A DNA stretch of 64,000 nt from Coriobacteriia bacterium (lineage in GTDB: Bacteria > Actinomycetota > Coriobacteriia > Coriobacteriales > Eggerthellaceae). Both the position numbers and the translations under genes were made by a program. The stretch's first letter is position 1, and every line of letters begins with the position of its first letter. This document shows, piece by piece, positions 28,638 to 29,369 of the stretch. The notes under the pieces were generated by a model. The model was given only the letters and a program-made list of their open reading frames with translations, searched no databases and had not been told where the DNA came from. Location of the stretch: the NCBI GenBank assembly GCA_030530215.1, contig JAUMVJ010000003.1, forward strand, positions 1 to 64,000, written 5' to 3'.

Positions 28638-29081
28638 ATGCTTCGAATCACCGTGTTCGCCGTCGGCAAACTTAAAGAGAAATTCTGGAAGGAAGCTTGC
28701 AACGAATACCTGAAGCGCCTGGGCGGTTACGCCAAGGTCGAAGTTCGCGAGCTGCCCGATTCCACGCGCGAGAAAGAAGGCGCGCTTTTAGCTGACGCGC
28801 TGCCCGAGCGCTGCCCCATCCTTTTGCTCGACATCAAAGGCAAAGAGCTCTCGAGCGAAGCCCTTTCGGCGCGCATCGACGAGCTCTCGCTTTCGGGCGA
28901 CAGCTACCTATGCTTCGTCATCGGCGGCAGCGACGGCGTCACCGACGAGATCAAGAAAATGGCCACCCAGCGTATCAGCTTCGGGCCTATCACCCTGCCC
29001 CACAACCTGGCACGCGTGGTCTTGTTAGAGCAGCTCTACCGCGCCATGAAGATCAGCCGCAACGAGCCCTATCACAAGTAA
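28638..29081 (+). CDS. rlmH: 23S rRNA (pseudouridine-1915-N3)-methyltransferase RlmH
   Basis: RlmH (147 residues) methylates pseudouridine 1915 in helix 69 of 23S rRNA using SAM; it is a SPOUT knot dimer. The AVGKLKEKFWKEACNEYLKR start, LLLDIKGKELSSE, CFVIGGSDGVTDEIK and ending EQLYRAMKISRNEPYHK are all typical. The ribosome site is AAAGGGA before the ATG. The stop lies 15 bases before the structured element at 29097. Confidence 0.97.
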   Translation: MLRITVFAVGKLKEKFWKEACNEYLKRLGGYAKVEVRELPDSTREKEGALLADALPERCPILLLDIKGKELSSEALSARIDELSLSGDSYLCFVIGGSDGVTDEIKKMATQRISFGPITLPHNLARVVLLEQLYRAMKISRNEPYHK

Positions 29082-29096
29082 CCGTCAACGCACGAA

Positions 29097-29272
29097 GCGC
29101 CACGTCAGGCGAAAGCCTTAAAGGGTTCGCTCTGAAATCCAAAAAGAGGATTCCGGAGGAATCCGCATAAAAATGCTGAAGGAGTGAGCGCATGAAGAAG
29201 CCCAGGTCGCTGACCTGGGCTTCTGAACAGCGGAACGGGCGATACCCGTAAGGCCTTCGCCTGACGTGGCGC
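29097..29272 (+). ncRNA. Multi-helix structured RNA candidate or palindromic element
   Basis: A 176-base segment closed by a 24-base inverted repeat with one mismatch: 29097-29120 against 29249-29272, beginning GCGCCACGTCAGGCGAA. Inside are CGCTC/GAGCG (29128-29132, 29186-29190), GGATTCC gga GGAATCC (29148-29164), GCAT aaaa ATGC (29165-29176), the 12-bp GAAGCCCAGGTC gct GACCTGGGCTTC (29197-29223) and ACGGG/CCCGT (29235-29249). Unpaired parts on the plus strand are A- and G-rich, as in folded RNAs. There are no target-site duplications or transposase. A short frame (29192-29251) with a GAAGGAG site also exists. The class is unknown. Confidence 0.5.
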
Positions 29273-29332: not shown

Positions 29333-29369
29333 CAAAAAAGGACGGCGCGCAATCGCACCGTCCTTTGAA
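29333..29369 (-). terminator. Terminator of the enoyl-CoA hydratase gene
   Basis: Read on the minus strand, AAAGGACGG and CCGTCCTTT form the stem, followed by TTTTTTG. It lies about 45 bases after the stop of the minus-strand gene at 29411. Confidence 0.85.

Follow-up and report, generated by a model that had tools for sequence, protein, structure and literature searches.

A large, highly structured interspersed repeat behind rlmH and its relatives in Eggerthellaceae

The element behind rlmH

The window analysed here is a stretch of 64,000 nucleotides from a Coriobacteriia bacterium of the family Eggerthellaceae. In this window, the gene rlmH ends with a stop at position 29081, and a structured element (29097–29272) starts 15 nt past it. 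A hairpin terminator (29337–29366) lies downstream of the element, outside it, and mainly serves the converging gene. The locus comprises the following features, in order of position.

28638–29081, + strand: rlmH (gene annotation), the immediately upstream gene, sense to the element
29094–29097, + strand: GAAG foot at the 5′ base of the outer stem (from the sequence)
29097–29272, + strand: whole element (fold, self-matches, covariation; 173 bits to covariance model R1)
29097–29120, + strand: 5′ arm of the outer stem P1 (fold, self-matches, covariation)
29123–29132, + strand: 5′ strand of P2, GGGTTCGCTC (fold, paralogue comparison)
29148–29164, + strand: P3 hairpin with triloop, GGATTCC-GGA-GGAATCC, 7 pairs (fold, loop census)
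29165–29176, + strand: small hairpin GCAT-AAAA-ATGC; in some copies an alternative pairing GCT/AGT
29184–29236, + strand: conserved arm with two G.A-rich internal loops (alignment, pair counts)
G29184-C29236, T29185-A29235 and T29193-A29227, + strand: pairs of the conserved arm, around which the loops lie
29196–29224, + strand: P5 hairpin with triloop, AGAAGCCCAGGTC-GCT-GACCTGGGCTTCT, 13 pairs, exchanged as a block among copies
29237–29247, + strand: 3′ strand of P2, GGGCGATACCC (fold, paralogue comparison)
29249–29272, + strand: 3′ arm of P1; in relatives GGAC follows directly
29337–29366, − strand: hairpin resembling an intrinsic terminator, beyond the element and belonging to the converging gene

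In a self-comparison, 29097–29120 matches the reverse complement of 29249–29272 at 23 of 24 positions; P2 is stacked upon the outer stem P1 formed by these arms. A first, sequence-only reading of the window had described terminal inverted repeats of 24 bases with one mismatch, inner hairpins of 12 and 7 pairs, and a location between rlmH and a terminator. Its coordinates prove exact and its location correct; the 7 pairs are those of P3, while P5 has 13 pairs and not 12.

The element outfolds every dinucleotide shuffle (200 per comparison) on either strand and with either RNA or DNA parameters, with z values for the two strands of −9.7 and −10.5 as RNA and of −9.0 and −8.6 as DNA. Read on the − strand, P3 together with a U-rich run (29138–29147) resembles an intrinsic terminator for − strand transcription. 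When the window was searched against Rfam 15, the gathering score was reached by a tRNA only and never on the element, where sub-threshold matches were at chance level and none was credible; this excludes the raiA motif, put forward in the sequence-only reading, and the element belongs to no Rfam family. No promoter-like site was seen for the element.

Copies, covariation and a conserved core

Around 15 copies of the element are present in its own genome (a 1.47-Mb draft, 64% complete), with core identities of 79–92%. Several are found downstream of genes encoding repetitive surface proteins, and others follow the TyrRS gene and rlmH. The outer stem and P5 differ wholesale among these copies yet remain paired. 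Across 14 paralogues, 97% of cells are paired, compared with 88% in column shuffles and 34–47% in slid controls, and double-sided changes affect 25 of 53 pairs, compared with 13 in shuffles.

Three further observations concern the surroundings of individual copies. Five own-genome copies (C19_2105, C6_100, C3_3115, C19_11325 and C3_6371) are immediately preceded by a palindromic block of ∼75 nt (GGCCCATTTCGC...GCGAAATGGGGC). Partial tandem duplications of the 3′ half of the element follow some full copies (L030, at C19 17691–17749; L034; L081, at 5325). At L009 (3278–10938) and L010 (2379–17396) there is an array of divergent surface-protein genes of 613–1471 aa, whose products share a C-terminal domain ending ...VNGKTYYSxWSxKKAVKTK and most of which are followed by a copy of the element; this array may be a recombining adhesin repertoire.

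A first covariance model, built from the own-genome copies, identified relatives in two of four genomes of the sampled genus and in 24 of 138 genomes of the bacterial family. With a second model, used for the wider search, 34 of 396 Coriobacteriia genomes were positive, belonging to 18 genera, all of them Eggerthellaceae. There are 1–17 copies per genome, and the distribution is patchy, with near-complete sister genomes or species devoid of copies. When 84,980 named genomes were scanned with a pattern, the matches fell in Adlercreutzia, Gordonibacter, Anaerotardibacter, Enteroscipio, Curtanaerobium and Eggerthellaceae or Coriobacteriia MAGs, and identical elements tie these named loci to members of the family found with the models; the sole matches outside Coriobacteriia, in a Thermoleophilaceae (L092) and a Deltaproteobacteria (L100) sequence, fit the pattern, but model R1 found no element in them and they were taken as chance. 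The same pattern found no element in IMG/VR viral contigs, and homologues were found neither in phages searched with the window copy nor in plasmids searched with an Adlercreutzia copy. We found no literature on such repeats in Eggerthellaceae. The resulting data set holds ∼100 unique copies.

In all, the unit consists of an outer stem of 17–50 bp that closes an invariant, multi-branched core, with ∼120 nt of branched interior. The core combines three hairpins with an arm that carries two G.A-rich internal loops, and its invariant junction runs in the order CUCUGAACAC, P3 with a C(GNA)G-type triloop, then AUGCAUGAAGSAGYGMAGCGCAYGA-P5-GARCAGCGGARCGG. P5 varies in size, from GCGAAGC in Adlercreutzia up to ∼36 nt elsewhere. 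The commonest loop is C(GAA)G, found in 30 P3 and 24 P5 hairpins of those parsed, whereas the classic stable RNA tetraloops (GNRA, UNCG) are rare and GNA triloops take their place. The core has the look of a small open reading frame behind AAGGAG-N7-ATG, a candidate that was rejected, as ACG replaces the ATG in a sizeable fraction of copies and elsewhere an early stop cuts the frame short.

Few pairs were recovered by RNAalifold from a MAFFT alignment of 53 sequences, because the stems differ in length, and pair counts from this alignment were used for the junction only. There, alignment columns Y103-R169 are U-A in 30 sequences and C-G in 23, and Y112-R160 are U-A in 35 and C-G in 18, both without exception; the two pairs (T29185-A29235 and T29193-A29227 in the window copy) occur in all four U-A/C-G combinations, and each adjoins conserved G.A oppositions. 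Over 83 parsed unique copies, one of the pairs is C-G in 46, U-A in 36 and U-G in 1, and the other is U-A in 44 and C-G in 39, amounting to one wobble in 166 observations. These switches between U-A and C-G at the junction, together with the double-sided changes among the paralogues, indicate that the fold of the element is under selection. Compared across copies, it is kept by compensatory changes and by changes of whole blocks. This massive covariation bears out the idea that the interior is under selection. That the element is a chance palindrome or an artefact has a negligible probability, as every shuffle folds less well and covarying homologues are found in 18 genera.

Dispersal and placement of the copies

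Adlercreutzia copies that are 93–98% identical are found in unrelated flanks, and about seven pairs of them match exactly from stem −1 to +4, with the boundaries A/stem...stem/GGAC. Since the matches end at the outer stem while the flanks are unrelated, the outer stem bounds the dispersing unit, and judging from these alignments the copies disperse as that unit; dispersed copies with defined ends in unrelated flanks are one mark of a non-autonomous MITE. Other Adlercreutzia pairs match only from +17 to −17, which implies a simultaneous exchange of the outermost 17 bp of the stem on its two sides.

Near the base of the stem, a strict GTAG is present in 21 of 90 copies, and GGAC follows the stem in 28 of 90, each in several genera. 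The window copy has the foot GAAG; GTAG occurs in two other copies of its own genome and in many relatives. One locus contains the element in two genomes of the genus Adlercreutzia, while seven congeners have an element-free intergenic region of 168–217 bp there, a comparison between different species (72–94% identity) in which the insertion includes other repeat modules. In both occupied genomes, the stop of the upstream gene is the TAG of the GTAG foot. TAGCG flanks one insertion on both sides, the left TAGCG belonging to the element's own foot, and no clear target duplication was seen at the insertions. The rlmH site is uninformative for such a comparison, as synteny is lost downstream of rlmH in congeners. 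Orthologous copies are found at the same site in different species in two cases (L042/L062 and L054/L113), a retention that could reflect a host function.

Other interspersed intergenic repeat modules of Adlercreutzia (GTTTGGTTCCC-rich; CAACCGCGCGCAAGGCCGAAGGCCGAGCAAGCGGGAGCGG) adjoin the element and form mosaics with it (L132 4900–5400 and homologous places in L070, L081, L091 and L122). At these places, one species has, and another lacks, a segment of 436 bp that lies between direct repeats of 45 nt.

The sequence-only reading had weighed a large non-coding RNA against a miniature inverted-repeat element and favoured RNA, with near-identical genomic copies and target duplications as the observation that would speak against it. 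Its view of the structure is upheld; the element is multicopy and covaries in relatives, and the near-identical dispersed copies exist in relatives, though no clear target duplication was seen. Its lean towards RNA fares less well: dispersed copies, precise boundaries at the outer stem, patchy distribution, the occupied and element-free site, head-to-head pairs and insertion near stops in either orientation shift the genome-wide evidence towards a miniature inverted-repeat element and make a role as RNA the less likely one.

Copies are placed close to gene ends. In 89 of 97 copies, the 3′ end of the element lies no more than 250 nt from the end of an open frame on the other strand, the commonest distance being 7–46 nt; sense genes on the 5′ side end at more variable distances. 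These counts rest on a home-made gene caller. Most copies are antisense to the gene in front of them; the window copy is sense to rlmH. Most are single; close pairs are all arranged head to head (L021, L049, L050, L064, L081, L091, L121; G022, G065, G067, G126). In individual cases, copies lie behind groEL in one genus (L054, L113, L041, L059), with the groEL TAG stop within the outer stem in L054 and L113; the element adjoins rlmH in a second genus as well (L158, genus g29); and in L044 (1368–3155) it falls inside the open frame of an FtsH-like gene, close to the gene's 3′ end, and seems to lengthen the C-terminal tail.

This tight placement behind stop codons would suit a device selected by the host for the 3′ end of the preceding gene, either a terminator (P3 and U run) or a hairpin that blocks exonucleases. 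The U-rich run after P3 on the − strand is present in the window and strong in Adlercreutzia-type copies, and an element with such a run, read antisense, could end the preceding transcript. The run, scored as at least six A in the relevant 8 bases, is nevertheless found in only 26 of 86 scored copies, whole lineages without it keep the same placement, and a terminator needs no element of 170 nt with an invariant core. We regard a 3′-end device as an improbable explanation of the family.

RNA, DNA and known repeat systems

A structured non-coding RNA, either free or in an mRNA 3′-UTR, with many copies each transcribed with its neighbour and a core that binds a protein or ligand, would account for the strong covariation and the invariant junction, both seen in new RNA classes, and for copies directly behind genes. 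Conserved G.A-rich internal loops are common in RNA. On the + strand, P1 has 45 G-T but only 20 A-C oppositions, again as in an RNA. On the other hand, most copies are antisense to the preceding gene, with their 3′ end 7–46 nt from its stop, no promoter-like site is present, the hairpins are capped by GNA triloops rather than GNRA or UNCG tetraloops, and the copies are dispersed in number with unit boundaries. Moreover, a helix that evolves as RNA normally passes through G-U intermediates, and wobble pairs are nearly missing at the variable pairs: P5 has 5 G-T, 5 A-C and 306 Watson-Crick pairs among 317. Taken together, we consider a non-coding RNA rather unlikely, and the element resembles small mobile DNA more than an ordinary non-coding RNA gene.

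The sequence d(GCGAAGC) forms an extraordinarily stable DNA mini-hairpin (PMC4686876). GNA triloops of this kind (GCGAAGC) and the avoidance of wobble hint at folding as DNA, without proving it. The fold of the + strand accommodates G-U/G-T slightly better, and the asymmetry between G-T and A-C in P1, if real, would mark the + strand as the folded one.

REPs of the GTAG super-family measure 20–40 bp, with a stem of 5–13 bp and a loop of 2–20 bp (PMC3733652); they carry a GTAG foot, are extragenic, form head-to-head doublets and provide TAG stops (PMC3733652; for REPINs, PMC3116915). With REP/BIME and REPIN sequences the element shares, in part of its copies, a GTAG-type foot on a palindrome, further an extragenic position near stops with the occasional supply of the TAG, an inverted head-to-head arrangement where two copies lie close together, many dispersed copies and an inferred single-stranded DNA fold (PMC3733652, PMC3116915). 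It differs in its size of ∼170 nt, about five times that of a REP, in its long outer stem (17–50 bp) and branched invariant core, in a foot that is often degenerate, in having 1–17 copies rather than hundreds and in the absence of a RAYT association. Because its size and core fall outside the REP definition, the element would work like a REP without being one.

For a REP proper, mobilised by the Y1 transposase RAYT, speak the GTAG foot, the head-to-head doublets and the provision of TAG stops, whereas the size and the branched core are far beyond the REP range (PMC3733652). Furthermore, a search of 38 genomes for Y1/RAYT (PF01797) revealed no association: the enzyme is missing from several copy-rich genomes (G005, G009, G033 and others) and present in copy-free ones, and the 12 Y1 loci examined have no element within 1.5 kb. 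This makes a REP proper very improbable. A reverse transcriptase as helper (of a retron or group II intron derivative) was likewise rejected, since PF00078 is absent from most copy-rich genomes and its presence is unrelated to copy number.

ERIC/RU-1, YPAL/RU-2 and Correia/NEMIS sequences are intergenic repeats of 100–200 bp with long stem-loops near genes (PMC2229807). The element is like them in size, intergenic position and long stem-loops (PMC2229807), but lacks 5′-TA-3′ termini, a visible target duplication and a recognised transposon relative; its core evolves by compensatory change and includes a G.A-rich arm that is invariant. With raiA and the large non-coding RNA classes of Rfam 15 it has in common a large multi-helix structure and an occurrence in anaerobic Gram-positive bacteria; unlike them, it has no Rfam match and is multicopy and dispersed. 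Integron attC sites resemble it in that the folded strand is antisense to the preceding gene, just past its stop; copies of the element, in contrast, lie behind core genes, with no cassette exchange seen, and integron consensus boxes are not apparent in it.

On balance, the element probably represents a new family of structured repeats scattered through Eggerthellaceae genomes: a giant REP-like, non-autonomous element of mobile type that would move as a folded single strand and survive behind stops. The unit would be recognised as a folded single strand, probably of DNA given its triloops of the C-GNA-G minihairpin type and near-absent wobble pairs, and moved by a putative enzyme supplied in trans. 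It would persist at the least harmful positions, immediately after stops, and may secondarily act as a 3′-end hairpin or, in about one third of copies, terminate transcription of the antisense-facing gene. Transposition, recognition of single-stranded DNA and the trans-acting enzyme are all inferred. Several observations run against this reading: the orthologous copies at the same site, the G-T excess in P1 (as in RNA or in a single folded strand), a strict GTAG in only 21 of 90 copies with GAAG in the window copy, and the failure of RAYT to track the element.

More tentatively, the family might represent a new class of single-stranded DNA element, in which a DNA fold of ∼170 nt, branched, rich in G.A and delimited by the element's outer stem, would be recognised and moved by a putative ssDNA-processing enzyme of Eggerthellaceae, and in which hairpins would be swapped as whole blocks, so that pairing persists without wobble intermediates.

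The family adds a large, highly structured repeat to gut actinobacteria, one with no counterpart in Rfam or in the literature we found. Its ∼100 unique copies offer a direct test of whether the fold was selected as RNA or as DNA, a test made possible by the near-absence of G-U intermediates at the variable pairs. If the fold was selected as DNA, a putative mobilising enzyme should exist; if as RNA, the element would define a new class of RNA, represented by as many as 17 loci in a genome.
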